A DNA stretch of 40,181 nt from contig JAJYWN010000072.1 in NCBI GenBank assembly GCA_021791495.1, positions 1 to 40,181 of the forward strand, given 5' to 3'. This stretch comes from Bacillota bacterium (GTDB lineage: Bacteria > Bacillota > Sulfobacillia > JAJYWN01). The translations under genes and the position numbers were made by a program. The notes under the pieces were generated by a model. The model did not search any database. It was not told where the DNA came from and was given only the letters and a program-made list of their open reading frames with translations. This document shows, piece by piece, positions 25,314 to 36,799 of the stretch; position 1 is the stretch's first letter, and the number at the start of each line of letters is the position of its first letter.

Positions 25314-25919
25314 TTGGACAGAGTAACCGGGGTGATCCTGGCAGGCGGAAGGAGCTCCCGCTTGGGTCGTGACAAGGCCTTCCTCGATTTCGGCGGCGCC
25401 CCGCTGATCTCCCGCCTGTATGCCGCCGTGGACGGCCTTTTCCGAGAGGTGATCGTCGTGGCACCCGACCCGTCGGCTTTTTCCTTTTTGCCCGTGCGGG
25501 TGGTGGCCGATACGTTCACCGGGAAGGGGCCCCTGGCCGGCGTGCAAGCCGGGCTGGCCGCTCTGGCCCCCGGGTCCGATGCCGCTTTCCTCCTGGCCTG
25601 CGATCTTCCGTTCGCAAACCGTGGTCTCATCCGCCATCTGATCGGGATGCGTGACGGTCACCAGGCGGTGGTGCCAAAAAAGGGCTCCTTCGTCGAGCCT
25701 CTGCACGCCCTGTACGACCGGCGCTGCCTTCCGGCCGTCGAAAGGGAACTGGCGGGCCCCTCGCCGCGTGTCAGTTCCTTTTTCTCGCGGGTGGACGTGC
25801 GTTACGCCGGTCCCGAGGAGGTCGAACCTTTCGGACCTTGGGAGCGACTGTTCTTCAATATCAATACGCCAGAGGACTACGCCCGGGCCCTGGACCTGTT
25901 GGGGGGCGCGATCTCATGA
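25314..25919 (+). CDS. mobA: Molybdenum cofactor guanylyltransferase MobA
   Basis: 201-aa nucleotidyltransferase that attaches GMP to molybdopterin to give the guanine-dinucleotide cofactor of DMSO-reductase-type enzymes. The N-terminal signature is VILAGGRSSRLGRDKAFLDFGG, and the metal-binding Asp is in LLACDLPF. Further blocks are GPLAGVQAGL and the C-terminal FFNINTPEDYARA. The frame is open from 25242. TTG 25314 is chosen for GGGAGG about 11 nt upstream and the normal N-terminal length, but this start is uncertain. The stop overlaps the HAD-GNAT gene by 4 bp (ATGA), indicating an operon. Confidence 0.88.
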   Translation: MDRVTGVILAGGRSSRLGRDKAFLDFGGAPLISRLYAAVDGLFREVIVVAPDPSAFSFLPVRVVADTFTGKGPLAGVQAGLAALAPGSDAAFLLACDLPFANRGLIRHLIGMRDGHQAVVPKKGSFVEPLHALYDRRCLPAVERELAGPSPRVSSFFSRVDVRYAGPEEVEPFGPWERLFFNINTPEDYARALDLLGGAIS

Positions 25920-27313
25920 AGCCGACCAACGGCGCCGCCCCGGGAGCGGTTCAGGCTCCGGCCATCGAGGCTGTGGTTTTCGACGTCGACGGGACCTTGA
26001 CGAAAGTGGGCAGCCCCTGGCAGTACCTCCACGAGCGGCTGGGGACGTGGACGGGGCGGGGGGAGCGGCACCTCCGTGATTTCCAGGAAGGGCGTATCGA
26101 TTACGACACCTTCGCCCGCCTTGACGCGGAAGCCTGGCGCGGAGTCCGGCGCGGCGAGATGCGCCGGCTGGTGAAGGAGATCGAATGGCGGCCGGGCGTC
26201 CTCGACACCCTGCTGGCACAGAAGACCGCGGGCCGAAAGATAGCCCTGCTCTCCTCGGGTCTGACCTTGATCACCGACAGGGTCCAGGACGAATTCGGCG
26301 ATATCGCCGACTTCGTCCTGGCGAACGAAGTCCTCTTCCGCTTCGGACGGGCCACCGGGAGGGTGGCGGTGCGCGTGCCTTGGAAGGGGAAAGCCGAAGC
26401 CCTTGACCAGGTAGTGAAAGCCCTGGGTGTGCCTCCGGAGCGGATGGCCCACGTCGGGGACGGGTCCGGGGATATACCGGTTTTCCGACGCGTGGCTCTC
26501 AGTGTGGCGACTGTCGATGCGCCGGAGGAGGTCAAGCAGGCGGCTTCGACGGTCTTGACCAGCGTGGACCTGAGGTCGCTCTTGTTGGTCCCGGGGTTGC
26601 AGGGGGCCCTTGACGGCGACGGCGACGGCGGCGGCTACGGTGATGGCGACAGCTGCGTGGATGGGAGGCGGGAGGCGGCGGCGGCCGGCGGGGGCGGCGC
26701 CCTCCAAGGCGCTCAGAACGGGCGCCCACCCGAAAGAAACGGCAGCCTCGAGGTCCTTGGCCAGGGTCTGGGGCTGGCCATCCGGCGCGTGACGCGCGGG
26801 GACCTGAAATACCTCTACCACCTTTTTAACGACCCGGATGTGGGCTACTACGCCTCGGCCTCAAGGATGCCGCGGATGACCTGGAGGCAGTTGGAGCAGT
26901 ATCATGCCATCTGGTCGAAAGGGGAACCGGCGGCCGGTGTCAGGCTCATCATCGAGGAGGCGGGCCAAGACATCGGCGTTCTGGCTTACACCGACTACGG
27001 CAGCCCGGGAGAACCGCACGTGGTCATGGGTATCGCCCTGGATGCGGGACATTGGGGGCGGGGTCTGGGTCCGCGCTCTATCGCGCTTTTCTTACGTTAT
27101 GCTTTCGAGACCCTGGGATACGCCAAAGTGGAGCTGGACGTCTTCGACCACAACCCCCGAGCGCGCAAGGCTTTCGAGAAATGCGGTTTCCGGCCTGTGC
27201 AGAGGGTGGACGCCCGTCACTACCTGGACGGGCGCAGGGTCTACACGACGGTGATGGAGGTCACGCCGGAGACGTTCCGCGCCTCCCAGGCCGGGCAACT
27301 CCTGGACGGCTAG
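25916..27313 (+). CDS. HAD phosphatase-GNAT acetyltransferase fusion
   Basis: 465-aa two-domain protein. Residues 18-220 are a SerB-like HAD hydrolase: DVDGT (Asp23, Asp25), LLSSGL, GKAEAL and GDGSGDIPVF are motifs I-IV, with a helical cap after motif I. Residues 285-455 are a GNAT acetyltransferase (LAIRRVTRGDLKYLYHLFNDPDV, GIALDAGHWGRGLGPRSI, NPRARKAFEKCGF). The linker is low-complexity and rich in Asp/Gly. No frameshift is needed, so this is a genuine single reading frame. Pairing a phosphatase with an acetyltransferase suggests two steps on one small metabolite, but the substrate is unknown. ATG 25916 overlaps the mobA stop; the 3' end shares CTAG with the convergent GGDEF gene. Confidence 0.85.
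   Translation: MKPTNGAAPGAVQAPAIEAVVFDVDGTLTKVGSPWQYLHERLGTWTGRGERHLRDFQEGRIDYDTFARLDAEAWRGVRRGEMRRLVKEIEWRPGVLDTLLAQKTAGRKIALLSSGLTLITDRVQDEFGDIADFVLANEVLFRFGRATGRVAVRVPWKGKAEALDQVVKALGVPPERMAHVGDGSGDIPVFRRVALSVATVDAPEEVKQAASTVLTSVDLRSLLLVPGLQGALDGDGDGGGYGDGDSCVDGRREAAAAGGGGALQGAQNGRPPERNGSLEVLGQGLGLAIRRVTRGDLKYLYHLFNDPDVGYYASASRMPRMTWRQLEQYHAIWSKGEPAAGVRLIIEEAGQDIGVLAYTDYGSPGEPHVVMGIALDAGHWGRGLGPRSIALFLRYAFETLGYAKVELDVFDHNPRARKAFEKCGFRPVQRVDARHYLDGRRVYTTVMEVTPETFRASQAGQLLDG
26612..26650 (+). repeat. GACGGC simple repeat in the fusion linker
   Basis: A near-tandem run of GAC/GGC triplets encodes Asp-Gly repeats (residues 233-245) exactly between the HAD and GNAT domains. It is prone to slippage and so a likely place for length variation between strains. 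Confidence 0.7.
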
Positions 27314-28926
27314 ACCTCGGTGCAGTTCCCTCCGCGCTGCTTGCCGTGATGTAGCGCCAGTTCGGCCTTCATGACCAGTTCCTCGGAACTGACCGTATCC
27401 TTCGGAAGAGAGGCCACCCCGGCGGTCATGGCCACCTGGAGCGCCCGGCGCCCTCTGGGTTGCCAGACCTTGGCGCCGATCTCCCGGCGGATTGCGTCCA
27501 CCAAAGCCACGGCTTCCTCCTTCCCCACGGCGGGGAGGATGAGGGCGAAGGAGTCGCCCGTCAGCCGGTAAACCTGGCCTTTTTCTCCAGTGAGCGACCG
27601 GAGGGCGTCGGCGACCCCGCGCAACACAGCATCGCCGGCGGCATGACCGGCCTCATCGTTCAGTTTCTTGAAGTCGTCCAGGTCGAGAATGGCCAAGGAG
27701 AGGGGTTGCCCGTAGGTGGCGGCGGCGCGGATGCCGCGGGCTAGGGCGGGGCGGAACGAACTCTCGTGCTGGAGTCCCGTCATGCGGTCCACCGTGTCGG
27801 TGCGGCTTTTCTGGTAATCGACCGCCTTTCCCAGGAGATCGGAGGAGAAAAGGAAGACCTGGTTCTTTCCCCTGGTCTTGGCCTCGTACATCGCCCGGTC
27901 GCTCCGGTCAAGCAGCTCTTTGATGGTCCCGCCGTCGCAAGGATAGGTGGCCACCCCGATACTGACCGTCAAGGGTGTGGACACCGTGGCGGCGGCGCCG
28001 GTGGGGAACTGCAACATCTCGGTCTTGGCGCGGATGCGTTCGGCCACCAGGCGGGCGGTTTCCTTGTCCGTGGCAGGGAGGATGACGACGAATTCGTCCC
28101 CGCCCAGCCGCGCCACGATGTCCGGCGCCCGGACGCCGCTGCGCTTGCGCGTGGAGCTCTTTAATGTCTCTGCCAGGAGCTTCAGGGCCATGTTCCCCAC
28201 CAAATGGCCGAAGCGATCGTTCAGGCGCCCGAAGTCGTCCAGCTCTAGGAAAAGGACAGAAAAGGGGCGGCTGTCGCGTCCGGCGCGGGCCAGTTCGTCT
28301 TCCAGGTTGCCGATGAGAGCGCGGAAGTTGAAAGCACCTGTGGTCTCGTCCAGTTGGGAGTCGCGGAGGAGGTCACTCCGCTTCACGGCGATGCCGGCCA
28401 GGTCGGAGCAGGCCCGGATCAGGTCTTCCGCCGCCTCGGTGAAGGGGGCCGAGCGGCGGGCCTTGGCCAGCAGGAGTACGCCCAATACTTCTTCGGAGGT
28501 CCGCATGGGCTGGCAGACGAACGCTCGCAGGTTGGCCGCGAGTCCAGGCGCCAGCTCTACGGCGGCGGAGGGGCTGTCGCCAGCCACGGGCGATTTCACG
28601 ACGGCCCCGGTGGCCGCCTGCCCGAGGGGACCGAACCCGATAGGAATGGAAAGACTGAGACGGAGCGCGTCTCGGAAACGGTGCTCGGCCAGGGGAGTCA
28701 GAGCGGATGATTTCCGGTCGAGGACCAAGGCCAAGCCGCGGTCGGCCGCGGTAGCCTCGGCCACCACTTTCAGGACCAAGGTCAGGGTTTCATCCAGGGG
28801 GTGGCTGGCCGCCACGATCTCGGAAACGGCGCGGAGCACGAAGTAGTACCTGCCAAGGTCATTGCGGGACGGACGCCCAGCTCCAGGGACCGGACCTGCG
28901 CCCCCGTCCGGGCCGGGTGCACTCAT
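27310..28926 (-). CDS. GAF plus tandem GGDEF protein
   Basis: 538-aa soluble protein. A GAF-like domain (about 30-185) is followed by a first GGDEF domain (about 192-358) with an intact RLGGDEF loop (275-279) and I-site RAPD (266-269). A second GGDEF domain (about 380-535) has the loop degenerated to RLTGDSF (456-460) and no Arg-x-x-Asp before it. The first domain should make cyclic di-GMP; the second probably cannot, and may bind nucleotide or act in dimerisation. Both keep the metal-site strand (LELDDFGRLND and ILDLDDFKKLND). It converges on the HAD-GNAT gene, and the two stops overlap in CTAG (27310-27313). Confidence 0.92.
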   Translation of the reverse strand: MSAPGPDGGAGPVPGAGRPSRNDLGRYYFVLRAVSEIVAASHPLDETLTLVLKVVAEATAADRGLALVLDRKSSALTPLAEHRFRDALRLSLSIPIGFGPLGQAATGAVVKSPVAGDSPSAAVELAPGLAANLRAFVCQPMRTSEEVLGVLLLAKARRSAPFTEAAEDLIRACSDLAGIAVKRSDLLRDSQLDETTGAFNFRALIGNLEDELARAGRDSRPFSVLFLELDDFGRLNDRFGHLVGNMALKLLAETLKSSTRKRSGVRAPDIVARLGGDEFVVILPATDKETARLVAERIRAKTEMLQFPTGAAATVSTPLTVSIGVATYPCDGGTIKELLDRSDRAMYEAKTRGKNQVFLFSSDLLGKAVDYQKSRTDTVDRMTGLQHESSFRPALARGIRAAATYGQPLSLAILDLDDFKKLNDEAGHAAGDAVLRGVADALRSLTGEKGQVYRLTGDSFALILPAVGKEEAVALVDAIRREIGAKVWQPRGRRALQVAMTAGVASLPKDTVSSEELVMKAELALHHGKQRGGNCTEV

Positions 28927-29038: not shown

Positions 29039-30079
29039 TTGTCACCCGCATTCTTCCCCCCGGTCCGGCCGGACCAGGGAAAAAGCGCAGACGGCAGGCA
29101 CACCGGCAAGGACGGGGGCCGTCACGTCCGGCCTCCGCTGGCCTTGCGAGCCGGCACGGCGCTGGGCGGGTTCCTCTTCGTGGCCGGTGTCGCTTCCCTG
29201 GTGTGGCAGTTCCAGAACCAGGGCGCGACGCTGCCGTTTCCGGGGTTGCAGGGGTTAAACCCGGGAACGGTCCTGTATGGTGCCGCCGGCGCCGCCGGGC
29301 TGGGGCTGGCCATGGCCGTTCTCGGCTGGCGGGCGGCGTTGAAGGAACGCCAAAACGAGGACTTCTGGAACTCGGCTACCCGCGTCGACCCCGACATGGC
29401 CGGGTACCGCGAGGAAGACGACGCCCGGCTGGAAGCGCAGGCCGGACCAGACTGGCGCTGGCTTTTGCCCTTCATGATCGCCGGTTTCATCACCGGGGCC
29501 GTCTTCTACCTCGAGCAGACTTGGTACTACACCGACTCTCCTTACCGTTTCATGGCGATCGCCTTCACCGCTGTGATGCTCCTGGCATGGGGGGCCGTCT
29601 GGGCGGTCTGGCGAGGAATACGCGCGGTTATTTCACGCCGCCGGAAGAAGGGCCGGCGGTGGGACGCCGCCGTGCGGGGCGGCGGCCGCTCCATGCGGGC
29701 CGTGCGGAAAGCCCCGCCCCCCGAGGTGGAACCGGAGGCGGCGGTGGAAGAGAAGCCGGCGGCCGAACCCGCAATGGAACCGGACGCCGATGCCGGCGCG
29801 CAGGCGCTGGAGGGACCGGCGGCCGAGGCGTTGGTAGCCTCGCCGGGCGCCGTCGTGAGTGGCGACGCCGGGCCGGGTTCTGGCGGAGAAGCGGACTTGA
29901 ACTGGGATGACTTGGGCGCGCCGGAACCACGGCGTTTGGTCGAAGCCATCGAAGCGGTGCTCGACCACGAGCGGGTATACAAGGAATCGGCGGCGGCTGT
30001 CGCCGAGCAACCAGAGGATGGCGGCTCCAAGCCAAAAACGCCAAGAACGCGGGGGCGGCGGCGCAAGCGCACCGGCTGA
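29039..30079 (+). CDS. Four-helix membrane protein of unknown function
   Basis: 346-aa protein I do not recognise. About 36 basic residues precede four membrane segments arranged as two hairpins (roughly 37-57, 77-99, 142-160, 174-195), separated by a hydrophilic acidic loop (NEDFWNSATRVDPDMAGYREEDD). The last 150 residues are a cytoplasmic Pro/Ala/Glu-rich region ending in a short amphipathic helix (RRLVEAIEAVLDHERVYKESAA) and a basic tail. TTG 29039 is chosen because AGAAGGA lies 7 nt before it; TTG 29144 would remove the basic extension. It is divergent from the tandem GGDEF gene and upstream of two other envelope genes. Confidence 0.6.
   Translation: MSPAFFPPVRPDQGKSADGRHTGKDGGRHVRPPLALRAGTALGGFLFVAGVASLVWQFQNQGATLPFPGLQGLNPGTVLYGAAGAAGLGLAMAVLGWRAALKERQNEDFWNSATRVDPDMAGYREEDDARLEAQAGPDWRWLLPFMIAGFITGAVFYLEQTWYYTDSPYRFMAIAFTAVMLLAWGAVWAVWRGIRAVISRRRKKGRRWDAAVRGGGRSMRAVRKAPPPEVEPEAAVEEKPAAEPAMEPDADAGAQALEGPAAEALVASPGAVVSGDAGPGSGGEADLNWDDLGAPEPRRLVEAIEAVLDHERVYKESAAAVAEQPEDGGSKPKTPRTRGRRRKRTG
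29062..29075. repeat. Perfect 14-bp palindrome GGTCCGGCCGGACC
   Basis: A perfect self-complementary 14-mer lies at the start of the four-helix membrane gene if TTG 29039 is the start, or in its leader if TTG 29144 is. It could be an operator for the divergent pair with the GGDEF gene, or a translation-limiting hairpin. Confidence 0.35.
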
Positions 30080-30248
30080 CCGGCCCGCCCTCACGGGTAA
30101 CCGGTGCGTTCTCGCTGCTAGCTGGCTTTCCGTCCCGTTTGTCGAACGAAAACTCCCGTCCCTTTTTTCCAGCGGTAGGATGTGCTAGCCCTCAGGACAA
30201 CCCTTGCCCACACGGAACAAAATCGATGGGGGTTAGGGGGCGGGTCTC

Positions 30249-31010
30249 TTGGCCCGGCGCTTTCTGTCCATTGCTGTCCTGGTAGGCTTGGCGGCCCTGG
30301 TGGCCGGCGCGTGGTTCCGCTGGCAGGAAGCGCGGGGCCTCGTCATACTGGAAATCGTGGAGACGGATAACCGGGCCCTCGTGGCCTGGCCGGAGGTCTC
30401 GAAAAAACGCCTTTTCCGACTGGAGCCGAGTCCGGCCGGCGGCGATGCCGGTCCCGTCTTGACCGGTCCCATACCTGGCCTCACTTTGCTCGGCGCCCGC
30501 GCTCTCGTACTCTGGGAAGTTGAGAACGAGGATATCCTCATCTATCAACGCCTCATTCCCCTGCGGCGGCTGCCGGCCGCCATCCCCATATCGGGAGAAC
30601 TAACATGGTACGGCGCGTTGGAGGAGACGTCGCTCCCCAAGGGGGCCGCCCGCCTCCTACCTGACACGGAACCCCTCCCTCCATCCGGTATCATCAACCT
30701 CATCGATAACAGAGCCCGGGTCCTCGGCGGAGACCTGTTGGTCCTGGGCCTGGGGCCCGACGGCAGTCTCGAGCTGTCCTACGGGGGGTACGGTTTCGCC
30801 CTGGCGCCGGGCGGGGCTTGGGGGGAGGCCCGGCGAAGGGGAACTGGCGGTGAGGACGTGATCGCACCGGCGGATGACTGGGCGGGACGACTTACAGAAG
30901 CGCTGGAATCAGGAGACGCCGTCACGAAGGTCACCTTGGTGAACCACGGCCGGTGGTACCCTAACCGGTCGGAAGACCAGCGGTATGCTAACCTGACCCA
31001 GGTACGGTAG
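30249..31010 (+). CDS. Membrane-anchored extracytoplasmic protein, unknown
   Basis: 253-aa protein with an N-terminal anchor (residues 4-22, FLSIAVLVGLAALVAGAW) and a mainly beta-strand exterior part with many hydrophobic-polar alternations (GLVILEIVETDNRALVAWPEV, LGARALVLWEVENEDILIYQRLIPL). No known domain is recognised. The start is TTG 30249 with a G-rich ribosome-binding site. It is followed after 13 bp by the lipase-like/PKD gene and probably forms an operon with it. High third-position GC supports it being real. Confidence 0.65.
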   Translation: MARRFLSIAVLVGLAALVAGAWFRWQEARGLVILEIVETDNRALVAWPEVSKKRLFRLEPSPAGGDAGPVLTGPIPGLTLLGARALVLWEVENEDILIYQRLIPLRRLPAAIPISGELTWYGALEETSLPKGAARLLPDTEPLPPSGIINLIDNRARVLGGDLLVLGLGPDGSLELSYGGYGFALAPGGAWGEARRRGTGGEDVIAPADDWAGRLTEALESGDAVTKVTLVNHGRWYPNRSEDQRYANLTQVR

Positions 31011-31023
31011 GGAGGGGCGTACG

Positions 31024-33933
31024 ATGACGGATCACCGGAAGGTGCGTTGGGCGATCGTGTTGGCGCTGGTGGCGGGACTCCTGGCGGAAGGCCCTTGGGC
31101 CGGGCCTGACGCGATTGGCGGGGGCCGGAGTGCTTGGGCGACCGTGGCGGCGGCCGCGCCGGTCCGACACCCCATTGTCTTCGTGGATAGCTCCGCGAAG
31201 AGCGCCAGAGACCTCTGGTCCTGCCCGGCCACCATCAGACCTGAATACGCCAGTCTGTGGGACCGGCTGACGGACATGGGCTACGTCCCCGGGAAGGACC
31301 TGTTCTCGGTTTCCCTCTCATCGGGTTTGAAGGGCGACTATGCGGAAAGCTACCGGACTCTACTCATACCCGCCATCCAGAGAGCCAAAGAAGCCTCGGG
31401 GGTGGCGATTGTGGACCTGATCGCCACAGGCCTGGGTGCGCTGGCGGCCCGCTTCTACACCGTGTCGCCAGACTATGCGGGTGACGTCGGGACCCTGGTG
31501 ATGGTGGCACCACCCAACCGCGGTTCTCTGGCGGCGACACTCTTGCGGTCGTCCTCCGTCTCCGACACGGTGGCCCGGCTCCTGTCCGCCAGTCCCCAGT
31601 ACGCCTCTCCGGGGGCGGGAGGCCTTCCGAATCCCACGCCTCTGAAAGAAGAACTGGAAAGGGCAGCCCGCCAGTTGCCACCGTTCACCAGTGAAGTGGC
31701 GTATGTTACCAGCCGGGCCCGTGACGCCTACGAACCACTCATCGCCTACTACCGGAAAGCCATCAAGTGGGAACCCCGGCCGGACATCAAGTCGAACAAG
31801 GCCACGATGACTTTCGAGGAGTGGCTGGCGGAAGAAATGCCCGAAGTCTACCTGAAATGTCTGTCCAAAGCGCAAGACCCGCCGGTCACACCTGACTATA
31901 TCCTGGATGGCCCCGCGGGCCCGCCTGGGCCGGGCATGGACCTCTCCCGAGCTTACTACGAGACTCTGGCCATATCCGCCGCCCAGCAGTCCTTGACCAA
32001 GACCACTTTGGGGGCGAAAGCTGTCCCCATTGACCTCGGCGAGTTACTGGCCGCTGTCCTTCCGGCCGCCGACCCAAAAGGAGCGGCGATCCGCTGGATT
32101 GGCGCCCTGGCGGCCCGTCTGGGGCTGAAGTGGTTTGCTCAGAACCAGCGGACGCTGGCAATATCCGCGGCGAAAGCCTTGTCGGGGGCCGACGCCAGTG
32201 ACGTGGCCTTCGACCGCCTGGTAAGGACGGACCTGGTCCTGCCGGTAGGCCACGACTACGCCGGGCGGCCCGTCTTCGATCGTTTGGTCGCCAACTGCTT
32301 CCTGGATGCCTGGAACCGGGCGGATCTGGTGGCTAGAACCGCCAACGAAAGGGCGGCTTTCTTCTCGGGAAACAGCCGCCCGGGGCCAAACGTTCGGTAT
32401 ATCACCGTCGCCGGAAGTGTCTCCAACCCATACACGGCTTTTGTCCCTTGGGCCAGGGACAATGACCTTTTCACCGAGGTGGACTCGGCTCTCCTCATGC
32501 CCGGAAGAGACGACGTCGTGGCGGTCTTCCGTTCCACCATGTCGGCCCGGGCCGGCATGCTCACCCACAACGAGACCGTCCACCGGTTCATTACCCAAGC
32601 TCTTTCCTGGGATTACCCCACGCGGGCCCGGCTGGCCCCCACGGCCCGGAGCGCGTGGAGTCTATGGACGTGGGAGAGGACGGGTTCGGCGGACGTTGAG
32701 GCCTGGAGCCCTGGGTACATCGAGATCGACTCGGCGCGGCTGCCGGGTCTCTCGGGTCTCTTGGAGGTGGATCTGAATTTCCCGCTATCGCCTCCGGGTT
32801 TGGTCCCCAGGGCTTGGGTCTACTGTGAGAGCGGCGACGGAAGGTGGGTCGAACAAGAGGAACTGACCCTCCGGGCCGACCCGCTCCGGCCGGGAGCCAA
32901 GGCCTCAGTGGAAGGGTTCGGCGGAGCCTACCGCCGCGTTTTGGTGGGCTTCCGCTATGTTCCGGACCCCGCTTTCGGGGAAAGCGCCGCCGTTCCCCAG
33001 AAAGCCGTGTCGGTCGACCTGACCTATACCGCCCGTTTCAAGCCGCTCCCGGCGTCCAAGAGCCAGGGAATGGCACCTGTGGCTACCGCCCCGAAAACGG
33101 ACCCGCCTCGGGGCTCCGGGCCGGACTCTGGCCAGGCTCCTGGACCGACCACCGGGTCGGCTACCGGGTCGGCTACCGGGCCTGCTACCAGGCCCGCTAC
33201 CAGGCACGCTATCGGGCGATCTACTGGGGCAGCCCCCGGCTCAGTTCTGAGCCCCACTCCTGCCTTCACGCCCGACTCATTCCCCGGTCCACGGGATGCG
33301 GTAGCCGCCGGAACCGTGACCGAGGACGAGCCCGAGACGATCCGGGTCATTCGCCACAGTAAAGAAACCACTCATCTCGATCCGGTCGAAATCAGGCACC
33401 AGACCTGGGTCTGGGATTTCGGTGACGGAACCGTCTGGCGCGACAACAATCCCGCCGACTGGAAGACCAAAGTCTCTCACGTTTACTCCAAGCCCGGCAA
33501 ATACACGGTTACGGGCCAATCGATGACCGGTGACGGCCGGGTGCTGACCACCCGGCGCTGGGCGGTGGATGTCGGCGCGGATGCCGGCGGGCAGGGCGAT
33601 AAAGGTCGTGAGGAGGTCTTCGAAGCATCATCACTCGAACCCCTGGCGGCGCAGGCTAGGCTGTCCGGTCCGATCGAGTGGGTGACGGGGCGGCCGGCCG
33701 ATTTCAACGTCCAGGTCCAGGTCGAAAGGCCTGACAATTGTACTGGGATGACCGTGCAAGTAGATCCGGGGAACAGATTCAGGGTGATTTGGGAGCGTCC
33801 CGGACGCTTCCTCGTGGCCGCCGCGGTCGTGGTAGACCTAAGCCTGGTTCTAAATGGGGAAACGCTCAAAATTCGCAACATCTACCGGTCGGAGATGGAA
33901 GTTAACGTGTTGGCACTTAGCATTACGGACTAA
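31024..33933 (+). CDS. Secreted lipase-fold pseudoenzyme with PKD domain
   Basis: 969-aa exported protein. After a signal sequence (about 1-43), residues 48-170 follow a lipase/PGAP1-like alpha/beta-hydrolase pattern. Where such enzymes have VDL-x-GHSMGG-LVARYY, this has VDLIATGLGALAARFY (130-145), so the nucleophile Ser is Gly136. The later acid and His regions persist (GRDDVVAVF, Asp496/497; MLTHNETVH, His515/520). A Pro/Thr/Gly-rich stretch with 12-nt repeats (residues 710-737) leads to a PKD domain (WDFGDG at 797-802, HVYSKPGKYTV) and a final beta-rich domain. PKD domains commonly bind polymers or proteins outside the cell. The role is probably binding, not hydrolysis. ATG with AGGGAGGGG upstream. 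Confidence 0.75.
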   Translation: MTDHRKVRWAIVLALVAGLLAEGPWAGPDAIGGGRSAWATVAAAAPVRHPIVFVDSSAKSARDLWSCPATIRPEYASLWDRLTDMGYVPGKDLFSVSLSSGLKGDYAESYRTLLIPAIQRAKEASGVAIVDLIATGLGALAARFYTVSPDYAGDVGTLVMVAPPNRGSLAATLLRSSSVSDTVARLLSASPQYASPGAGGLPNPTPLKEELERAARQLPPFTSEVAYVTSRARDAYEPLIAYYRKAIKWEPRPDIKSNKATMTFEEWLAEEMPEVYLKCLSKAQDPPVTPDYILDGPAGPPGPGMDLSRAYYETLAISAAQQSLTKTTLGAKAVPIDLGELLAAVLPAADPKGAAIRWIGALAARLGLKWFAQNQRTLAISAAKALSGADASDVAFDRLVRTDLVLPVGHDYAGRPVFDRLVANCFLDAWNRADLVARTANERAAFFSGNSRPGPNVRYITVAGSVSNPYTAFVPWARDNDLFTEVDSALLMPGRDDVVAVFRSTMSARAGMLTHNETVHRFITQALSWDYPTRARLAPTARSAWSLWTWERTGSADVEAWSPGYIEIDSARLPGLSGLLEVDLNFPLSPPGLVPRAWVYCESGDGRWVEQEELTLRADPLRPGAKASVEGFGGAYRRVLVGFRYVPDPAFGESAAVPQKAVSVDLTYTARFKPLPASKSQGMAPVATAPKTDPPRGSGPDSGQAPGPTTGSATGSATGPATRPATRHAIGRSTGAAPGSVLSPTPAFTPDSFPGPRDAVAAGTVTEDEPETIRVIRHSKETTHLDPVEIRHQTWVWDFGDGTVWRDNNPADWKTKVSHVYSKPGKYTVTGQSMTGDGRVLTTRRWAVDVGADAGGQGDKGREEVFEASSLEPLAAQARLSGPIEWVTGRPADFNVQVQVERPDNCTGMTVQVDPGNRFRVIWERPGRFLVAAAVVVDLSLVLNGETLKIRNIYRSEMEVNVLALSITD
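33151..33234 (+). repeat. Seven 12-bp tandem repeats
   Basis: The unit ACCGGGTCGGCT repeats seven times with increasing divergence. The first two copies are identical and the rest differ at several positions. They encode Thr-Gly-Ser-Ala-like tetrapeptides linking the lipase-like region to the PKD domain. Identical copies at the 5' edge suggest recent slippage there. Confidence 0.8.
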
Positions 33934-34041: not shown

Positions 34042-34094
34042 GAGAAAGGTATGTAGAGCCTGTGGTTGGAAAGGATTGCTTGGAGGGACGGCCG

Positions 34095-34490
34095 TTGCGC
34101 AACTCTCGCATCTTGATTGGCGCATTGATTATCGTAGCCGCTATCACCTACTTAGCCATTACTGGGTTCACAAAGTCAACCGCCTATTATGTGGAAGTCG
34201 ACGGCTACCTTAGTAAAGCCTCGGCCATCGGGAGCCAGGTGGTGAGGGTGGCCGGCACCGTGAAGCCCGGGAGCATTAAATGGGAGCCGGGGAGCATTTT
34301 GTTGGACTTCACGCTGTCGGGACAAACGGGAGAGTTGCCCGTGACATTCAAGGGCATTCGTCCTGATAACTTCGAGGACGGCCGCACGGTGGTGGTGGAG
34401 GGTAAGATGGGAGCCAAGGGAGTGTTCGCCGCCAAGAAGCTGATCATTCAGTGCCCTTCGAAGTATGAGGCGGCACCCAAAGGACAATAA
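34095..34490 (+). CDS. ccmE: Cytochrome c maturation heme chaperone CcmE, Cys-x3-Tyr variant
   Basis: 131-aa membrane-anchored heme chaperone. It receives heme from CcmC/CcmAB outside the membrane and passes it to CcmF for attachment to apocytochrome c. One N-terminal helix (residues 5-24) is followed by the beta-barrel domain (GSQVVRVAGTVKPGSI, LPVTFKGIRPDNFEDGRTVVVEGKM). The covalent heme residue is normally His in HxxxY; here the motif is CPSKY with Cys120 and Tyr124. The Cys form is known from archaeal and Desulfovibrio CcmE. The start is TTG 34095 with GGAGGGA upstream. It is the first gene of the ccm operon. Confidence 0.9.
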   Translation: MRNSRILIGALIIVAAITYLAITGFTKSTAYYVEVDGYLSKASAIGSQVVRVAGTVKPGSIKWEPGSILLDFTLSGQTGELPVTFKGIRPDNFEDGRTVVVEGKMGAKGVFAAKKLIIQCPSKYEAAPKGQ

Positions 34491-34504: not shown

Positions 34505-36799
34505 TTGGTCGCTCTAGGTCGACTGGCAACCCTCGTTGCCTTGCTCGGGTCGGTCTACGCTGTGGTTTGGGGGGCCGGCCTGGTTTGGGCCAAGGAAGTC
34601 AAACCAAAAGCCAAACCCGTCCGTCAGAAGGAAAAGAAACGCAAGAACAGTCTTGGCGTGGAACCGCCCGCTCCGACAGCGGGCTTCCCAGTCCTCCCTC
34701 AGGCCGTCGCGCAGAATGTCCGCTTGGGGCTGGGTGTGGCGGCTGCCGCCGCCACCGTGGCGACTCTCGCTCTCTTGGGTTTGCTGGTGACCAGCGACTT
34801 CCGGGTGGAGTACGTCGCCTCCTATACCAGTAAGGCTCTCCCCTTGGTGTACAAGCTTTCCGCCTTCTGGGCCGGACAGGCCGGCAGCCTACTGCTGTGG
34901 TTATGGCTGCTCACCGTCTACGGCTTTCTGGTGTCCATGTCCCGACGTGACGAAAGCCTCGCGGTCCGGGCCGCCGTTCTGCTGGCAGCGGTATCGGTGT
35001 TCTTTGGTCTGGTGACCGTGGCGGTCACCCCTCCCTTCGCCACACTGGCCGAGCCTCCGGCCGACGGCAACGGGCTGAACCCCCTTCTTCAGAACTTCGG
35101 CATGGCGGTGCATCCGGTCACTCTCTACCTCGGATACGTGGGGTTGGCGGTGCCCTTTGCCTTCGCGCTGGCTTCCCTCCTGGCGGGGCGCCGGACCGAC
35201 GAATGGATCCGCCGTTCGCGACTCTGGACTCTGTTCTCCTGGTTGTTCCTCAGCATCGGCATCCTCACCGGTGCCCAGTGGGCTTACGTGGAACTGGGGT
35301 GGGGCGGGTACTGGGGTTGGGACCCTGTGGAGAACGCTTCGCTCCTGCCGTGGCTGACCGCCACCGCCTACCTCCATTCCGTCATGGTGCAGGAACGGCG
35401 TGGGTCGTTCCGGGGCTGGAACTTCTTCCTCGCCTCGCTGACCTTCATGCTCACGGTGTTCGGGACGTTCCTCACCAGGAGCGGCGTCTTGTCTTCCGTA
35501 CACGCCTTCCCCAATACCGGCCTCGGCCTGTGGTTCCTGGCATTCATGGGTGTGTGCCTCGCCGCCATGTTCATAGCCTTGAGCCAACGGCCAGGAGTCC
35601 TCAGCGACGAGTCCGCGACTTCGGAAAAAGACATTAGAGTCGGCATTCTCTCCCGTGAAGCATCCATTCTGATTACCAACTTCCTCTTCCTCGCCTCGAC
35701 CTTCGCCGTGTTCTGGGGGACGCTGTTCCCCCTCATCTCCAAGGCTTTCGGTCGCGGTGAAGTGGCGGTGGATGCCGGGTTCTACAACCGTGCCAACTTG
35801 CCCGTGTGGTTCCTGGTGATGGTACTACTCTCCATCTGTCCGATCCTGGCCTGGAAGAACACCACCGGCAGAGACTTCCTCTCCCGGTTCCGCTGGCCCT
35901 TGGCGGGGGCCATCCTGGCCGTGGCGGCCGGTTTCGCCGAAGGCATCCGGGGCGCCCTCACCTCCGCCGTCTTAGCCGCGGCCGGGCTCACCTTGGGGTC
36001 CGTCATTTCGGAAATGGCGCGGGCCATAGCGGCGCGCCGGCGGTCCACCGGTGAGTCACTATTGACCGCGGCCTACGGTGCGGCTACCCGGGACCGCCGC
36101 AAGTTCGGGGGCCTCACGGTCCACCTGGCGGTGGCCCTGATCGCCATCGGGATTTCGGGAGCTGCCCTAGGGACAGCCGATCAGACCGCAAACTTGGCGG
36201 TGGGCCAGTCCATGCAGGTGGGTGGATACGAAATCACCTATAACGACCTCACCATGCGCGACGAACCCAACCAGACCGTCGTTGTAGCCGCCCTCACCGT
36301 GAAACAAGGAGGACGGGTCCTGGGGACACTGCAGCCGCGCAAGGCTTTCTTCGAAAACTACGAGGAGCCGGCCACCGAGGTGGCGGTCATGGGCAGCCTG
36401 GCCCGCGATATCTACGCTATCCTGGGTGGTTGGAGCGAGGATAAGAGTGCCACACTCAGGATCATCATCAACCCGCTCATGGCTTTCCTTTGGCTTGGCG
36501 GGTATGTCTTGACCGCCGGCGCCCTCTGGGCAGCCTGGCCGCCGGCCCGCCGGCGCGCCGCCGGTCTGGGTATCAAGGGGCTGGATCTTGCGACCCCAGC
36601 CCAGGCGCAGGAACTGATGGAGGCGTCGGGCCGCGCCGCATCGGCGGCAGCTATGGCGGCGGACCAGGCTATCGAGGCGGCTGTGGGCCAGTTAGTGGGA
36701 GAGGGGAAGGGCCGCGGGCGGACCTGTCCCCATTGCGGAGCCAGGCTCATGTCACCGGGGCAACGTTTCTGCCACCAGTGCGGCAAAGAGCTAGCCTAG
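34505..36799 (+). CDS. ccmF: Heme lyase subunit CcmF with zinc-ribbon tail
   Basis: 764-aa polytopic membrane protein of System I cytochrome c maturation, thought to reduce and attach heme carried by CcmE. About 14 helices are seen. The WWD heme-handling loop is at about residues 262-280 (WGGYWGWDPVENASLLPW), and conserved blocks such as FGTFLTRSGVLSSVHAF follow. It differs from typical CcmF in two ways. A charged segment of about 40 residues (KPKAKPVRQKEKKRKN) sits between the first and second helices. The C-terminus bears a zinc ribbon, CPHC-x11-CHQC (Cys741, 744, 756, 759). TTG start with AAGGGGG upstream, 14 bp after ccmE. Confidence 0.93.
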   Translation: MVALGRLATLVALLGSVYAVVWGAGLVWAKEVKPKAKPVRQKEKKRKNSLGVEPPAPTAGFPVLPQAVAQNVRLGLGVAAAAATVATLALLGLLVTSDFRVEYVASYTSKALPLVYKLSAFWAGQAGSLLLWLWLLTVYGFLVSMSRRDESLAVRAAVLLAAVSVFFGLVTVAVTPPFATLAEPPADGNGLNPLLQNFGMAVHPVTLYLGYVGLAVPFAFALASLLAGRRTDEWIRRSRLWTLFSWLFLSIGILTGAQWAYVELGWGGYWGWDPVENASLLPWLTATAYLHSVMVQERRGSFRGWNFFLASLTFMLTVFGTFLTRSGVLSSVHAFPNTGLGLWFLAFMGVCLAAMFIALSQRPGVLSDESATSEKDIRVGILSREASILITNFLFLASTFAVFWGTLFPLISKAFGRGEVAVDAGFYNRANLPVWFLVMVLLSICPILAWKNTTGRDFLSRFRWPLAGAILAVAAGFAEGIRGALTSAVLAAAGLTLGSVISEMARAIAARRRSTGESLLTAAYGAATRDRRKFGGLTVHLAVALIAIGISGAALGTADQTANLAVGQSMQVGGYEITYNDLTMRDEPNQTVVVAALTVKQGGRVLGTLQPRKAFFENYEEPATEVAVMGSLARDIYAILGGWSEDKSATLRIIINPLMAFLWLGGYVLTAGALWAAWPPARRRAAGLGIKGLDLATPAQAQELMEASGRAASAAAMAADQAIEAAVGQLVGEGKGRGRTCPHCGARLMSPGQRFCHQCGKELA

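Follow-up and report, generated by a model that had tools for sequence, protein, structure and literature searches.

A conserved gene pair for a membrane-anchored protein and a secreted lipase-fold protein, upstream of cytochrome c maturation genes in a Bacillota bacterium

Secreted lipases such as LipA of Bacillus subtilis (PDB 1i6w), the Burkholderia lipases and BlEst2 (6wpx) have an export signal, an alpha/beta-hydrolase fold and a catalytic acid Asp. Lif foldases have been described as membrane-anchored proteins that lipases need in order to mature (PMC13381987). In lipase/Lif (LipH/LipB) pairs the two genes are neighbours. PKD domains occur in other secreted proteins, for example the collagenases ColG and ColH. 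We analyzed a stretch of 40,181 nucleotides from a Bacillota bacterium (GenBank assembly GCA_021791495.1, contig JAJYWN010000072.1; hereafter the window), in which two adjacent genes, B and C, encode proteins that resemble each of these systems in part. We consider it rather probable that B and C make up a complex that is tethered to the membrane and largely non-catalytic, serving in binding or assembly, with B as the anchor or folding partner of the lipase-fold domain of C. The pair is kept by many deep-branching monoderm Bacillota, yet it has neither a name nor a family, and our literature search turned up no account of one like it.

The window, a single contig, comes from a 4.2 Mb assembly of 81 contigs with 97% completeness, and was compared with 61 genomes of the monoderm Bacillota class that contains Sulfobacillus. 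The features of the pair are as follows (aa, amino acids; Ig, immunoglobulin; pLDDT, predicted local distance difference test).

30249..31010, + strand: gene B, 253 aa, with a predicted N-terminal membrane anchor and a beta-rich extracytoplasmic domain
30252..30329, + strand: predicted membrane helix of B (residues 2-27), from the predicted structure
31024..33933, + strand: gene C, a putative secreted multidomain pseudolipase of 969 aa
31162..32643, + strand: lipase-type alpha/beta-hydrolase domain of C (residues 47-540), containing a large helical insert around residues 176-400
31429..31431, + strand: nucleophile-elbow codon of C, residue 136, GGC (Gly; Ser in active lipases)
32668..33045, + strand: beta domain of C, residues 549-674, from the predicted structure
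33058..33324, + strand: Pro/Thr/Gly-rich linker of C, residues 679-767, predicted with low confidence (pLDDT < 50) and disordered
33331..33573, + strand: PKD domain of C, residues about 770-850, from Pfam and the model
33607..33921, + strand: C-terminal Ig-like beta domain of C, residues 862-966, with the signature GPxxWVTGRPAxFxV...WERPGxFxVxAAVTV

Matches to C were found in 48 of the 61 genomes. The B profile placed B directly 5' of C in 31 of 37 C loci, one of these calls (L084) being weak, and the two open reading frames (ORFs) often overlap or touch; in the window they are 13 base pairs (bp) apart. In the remaining loci, B lies 2-10 kb away (L061 and L073), inside an over-extended C frame (L078) or on another contig (L091); one locus is at a contig end (L085), and in one C has no hydrolase domain (L070). 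An extra locus, L187, also has B directly upstream of C. These data support B-C as a real, conserved two-gene unit, which is probably co-translated. In one genome (G004, L060 369-1714) two B-like genes stand in tandem 5' of C.

B was present in 33 of 34 hydrolase-bearing C loci and in none of the three loci without the hydrolase domain (L070, L186 and L188; Fisher 5e-4). The C proteins of these three loci have a signal sequence, PKD and Ig parts; that of L070 is 254 aa long and the other two are longer. At the level of gene content, this shows that B depends on the hydrolase domain of C. Because B is missing where the hydrolase domain is missing, B may act on the lipase-fold domain, catalytic or not, as an anchor or a folding partner, and we regard this as the best clue to the mechanism.

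The earlier note on this DNA, made by a model from the letters alone, had described C as a large secreted lipase-like/PKD protein with a dead hydrolase fold, and its reading of a dead hydrolase fold together with a PKD domain is right. The N-terminus of C is hydrophobic and signal-like. Its hydrolase domain superposes on B. subtilis LipA over 171 residues (Z 19.4, 2.4 Å), with Z of 15-19 across the secreted lipases named above, and the C family profile matches secreted lipases by sequence, with E values down to 2e-16. C differs from them in its large helical insert, in its beta, PKD and Ig-like domains, in having B as a partner and, in the window, in lacking the nucleophile Ser and the His. 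Searches with Pfam and NCBIfam found nothing significant in B or in the gene 5' of it, gene A, and the PKD domain of C was the sole named family in the three proteins; it scored 35.7 bits with PF00801 and 31.8 bits with PF18911, above the Pfam cut-offs of 23.5 and 27 bits. As in ColG/ColH-type proteins a PKD domain is present, but in C this single domain is followed by a class-specific Ig-like domain and is carried on a pseudolipase rather than a protease. The PKD and Ig modules are the best-conserved parts of C: mean pairwise identity in the family is 0.386 for each, 0.351 for the N-terminal core of the hydrolase and 0.225 for its insert. In a sample of the phylum outside the class, the C-terminal module was matched in full once, in genome G083. 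When contigs were scanned with the PKD/Ig part, among the matches listed most were unrelated PKD proteins.

Residue 136 of the window C is a Gly; in the model it follows strand 130-135 and precedes helix 137-147. Where a fold persists without catalysis, Gly would be favoured at the strained nucleophile elbow. The nucleophile position could be scored in 34 C proteins, of which 10 have Ser, 23 Gly and 1 Asp, so that the loss noted in the window is true of most family members. The catalytic His is present in all 10 Ser members and is also kept in many Gly members; the window C has Ala at the aligned position, 510, and lacks the HG oxyanion motif. The catalytic acid, D481, is conserved in 35 of the 35 proteins scored. 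By its active-site residues, then, C is predicted to be a pseudolipase in most members. A tree of C, made by a quick method and with long branches and weak deep support, requires seven changes of the Ser state, at least two of them forced by well-supported branches; L064 (Ser) and L078 (Gly) are sisters with full support. This points to several independent changes of the nucleophile Ser across the family. With complete Ser-His-Asp members and Gly members in one orthologous family, a non-catalytic role of the lipase fold is testable on close pairs.

One could argue instead that C is an active lipase or esterase with a rearranged active site, in which the Gly is compensated elsewhere. The fold is kept, the acid Asp is invariant and the His remains in many Gly members, as such an enzyme would have it. 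However, the window C has also lost the His (A510) and the oxyanion motif, and the hydrolase domain is entirely missing in some relatives. We therefore regard an active C as decidedly improbable.

B had been described as an anchored beta-rich protein, and its AlphaFold model (pLDDT 86) has an N-terminal helix (residues 2-27) and a beta-rich body. In two relatives a lipobox-like motif occupies the position of the helix (LGGC in L093 and VSGC in L089), which would fit membrane attachment on the outer face. When the model was compared with solved structures, the best Foldseek E value was 0.29, and VIA gave Z values of at most 4.3, to unrelated chains, with Lif not listed; a missing structural match is no proof of a new fold. 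Taking the signal sequence in C and the transmembrane segment or lipobox in B together, an envelope location of the two proteins is plausible. Omp85 was found in none of the 61 genomes, with positive controls; a single-membrane envelope is therefore likely in this class, judging from gene content, and an outer-membrane complex was ruled out as a reading of the locus. Outer-membrane genes have been described as absent from related deep Bacillota (PMC11448272).

The main rival to a binding or assembly complex is that B is a membrane-anchored steric chaperone, like Lif of the Pseudomonas and Burkholderia lipases, and that C is then released outside the cell. As in lipase/Lif pairs, the genes are neighbours and the partner of the lipase-fold protein would be membrane-anchored and extracytoplasmic; B adjoins C, has an N-terminal anchor and tracks the hydrolase domain (none of the three hydrolase-less loci has it), and Lif-dependent Burkholderia lipases are among the matches of the C profile. 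On the other hand, Lif is helical (PDB 2es4) and B is beta-rich; B lies upstream of C and is kept where catalysis is lost, and in the window its client would be catalytically dead. A Lif-like chaperone role of B followed by release of C seems unlikely, though it deserves to be reckoned with.

In the binding or assembly complex that we prefer, C would leave the cytoplasm through Sec. With Ser and His gone in this species, the lipase-fold domain would serve for binding or as a scaffold, and the PKD and Ig-like tail, as the constant part, would make contact with the wall, a ligand or a partner. B would sit in the membrane and anchor or fold the lipase-fold domain. The earlier suggestion of a role in the assembly of an envelope complex may apply to B-C. 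Several points should temper this proposal. The hydrolase-less, B-less sample comprises three loci; physical binding of B to C is what we infer; the non-catalytic binding function of C and its ligand are likewise conjectural; and loss of the Ser does not prove that every activity of C is lost. More tentatively still, and as a possibility rather than a probability, B-C may be a surface system found across the class and not described before, pairing a membrane protein whose fold has no match with a secreted lipase fold that changed, several times independently, from enzyme to non-catalytic binding module, borne on a conserved PKD/Ig-like arm.

The gene that precedes the pair appears to have a different origin. 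Its features, and those of the neighbours on the other side, are:

29039..30079, + strand: gene A, encoding four hydrophobic segments followed by a P/A/E-rich tail; kin to PilM-fusion N-termini
29459..29608, + strand: second transmembrane hairpin of A, with an LExxWYxTDSPYRF-type motif common to PilM-fusion N-termini
34062..34490, + strand: ccmE, a neighbour outside the unit
34505..36799, + strand: ccmF, a neighbour outside the unit

Genes A, B and C are three same-strand ORFs immediately 5' of ccmE/ccmF, as had been stated, with 169 bp between A and B and 128 bp between C and the annotated ccmE ORF; the latter gap contains one promoter-like match (0.5 expected in shuffles). From this layout the earlier note had proposed that all three form one envelope system. 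Gene order in relatives had been set beforehand as the refuting test, and here A drops out: B and C stay together, but in none of the other genomes searched does A stand beside them, and it occurs in PilM fusions instead. Most often, the gene 5' of B codes for a NUDIX hydrolase (8 families). A three-gene operon is thus ruled out by gene order in relatives, and a single three-gene system, whatever the adjacency of A, B and C on one strand in the window, is barely credible. We think it fairly probable that the interval holds two unrelated things, an orphan A and the conserved B-C pair; this corrects the grouping of the genes, and A, the apparent leftover of a type IV pilus locus, is best kept out of the B-C system.

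A is 346 aa long from a TTG start, although the start codon is uncertain and the open frame extends back to 28862. It had been called a four-helix protein with a long acidic cytoplasmic tail. The four hydrophobic segments are there, and the Pro/Ala/Glu-rich tail is acidic in its middle (23 D/E versus 5 K/R in 99 residues), but both ends of the tail are basic. An unbiased search with full-length A found matches in only three other genomes: two are N-termini of fusion proteins with PilM as their C-terminal half, and the third (L055) has an unrelated layout and aligns in the low-complexity tail. A profile of the hairpin (A4) gave extra weak matches, several of them inside PilM-fusion frames of genomes G001, G002, G028 and G031; PilM fusions were among the sequences used to build it, so its further matches are not independent. 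Identity between A and the PilM-fusion N-termini is 37-47% over 34-65 residues, which shows, on alignment, that they are kin.

PilM is normally a soluble cytoplasmic protein, and a membrane-anchored PilM is unusual. In L229 (686-3100) and L230 (16764-19148) PilM is fused to a long N-terminal region with multiple transmembrane segments and an acidic linker. A shares with the PilM fusions of the class the N-terminal membrane hairpin, the style of the acidic P/A/E linker and, in genomes of the sister order, a comparable place 5' of ccm. In G001 and G002, which belong to the same order, PilN-like and PilO genes come next after the A-PilM fusion, which lies about 13 kb 5' of ccmE on the same strand, with ccd, copper and ccm genes downstream; in G027 an A-type region occurs in a PilM fusion about 9 kb from B-C. 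Unlike these fusions, A has no actin-like domain: PilM_2 was not found in A by Pfam, nor anywhere in the assembly of the window. A PilB-type ATPase was not found in that assembly (G000) either, where the only two T2SSE matches are Tad-like (about 1e-65), versus PilB-type matches of about 1e-140 in G001-G003. Because the kin of A are PilM fusions upstream of ccm, and because the assembly lacks PilM and PilB, we read A as a probable leftover, now orphaned, of a type IV pilus locus. Its history would be that of a membrane-anchor region, fused to PilM in relatives, that was stranded near ccm after loss of the PilM/PilB machinery. Three observations speak against this account: the similarity covers only about 35-65 residues of a membrane segment; the frame is intact with ordinary GC content at third codon positions, so A may still be a functional gene; and at 97% completeness in 81 contigs, PilM or PilB may sit in a gap of the assembly.

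The proximity to ccm raises the question of whether the pair has a part in maturing c-type cytochromes or in assembling the respiratory chain. Of 23 genomes with both ccmF and B-C, 5 have them within about 11 kb of each other (chance about 2e-6 if randomly placed), and ccd/ccm genes directly follow C in the window, in L066 (ccdA/tlpA first) and in L187. The proximity thus recurs, but there is no co-occurrence: CcmF is present in 23 of 48 genomes with B-C and in 7 of 13 without (Fisher 0.76), which gives no support to a function tied to ccm. In most loci, moreover, the neighbours are others; the commonest are the NUDIX hydrolase upstream and, on the downstream side, DUF1405 and a class-wide family of uncharacterised proteins, besides FeoB and SpoVT, with SpoVT and IreB nearby in other families. 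A role in cytochrome c maturation is therefore improbable, and we take the ccm position of B-C as inherited gene order, not function.

The downstream family c5 was rejected as a dedicated partner of B-C, being present in all 61 genomes. The protein of L088 (11761-12648) and its homologues (alignment A5) form a family of about 300 aa found in 61/61 genomes of the class in 1-4 copies, with no NCBIfam match and, for the one member tested, no Pfam match; extra copies often follow C or DUF1405. One genome of the class has an 84,933-base contig whose tested 20 kb match the Sulfobacillus acidophilus DSM 10332 plasmid without a difference, which identifies the class as the one of this organism.

The CcmF ORF of the window (34505-36799) has a C-terminal zinc ribbon at residues about 739-763, near or at the Pfam cut-off; in sister-order genomes a similar tail is a separate small downstream gene (L229 19171-19638 and L230 3603-4109). 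On the other side of the interval, a GAF protein with two GGDEF domains (27310-28926) is divergent from gene A, and a single ORF at 25838-27313 combines a HAD-type phosphatase with a GNAT acetyltransferase.

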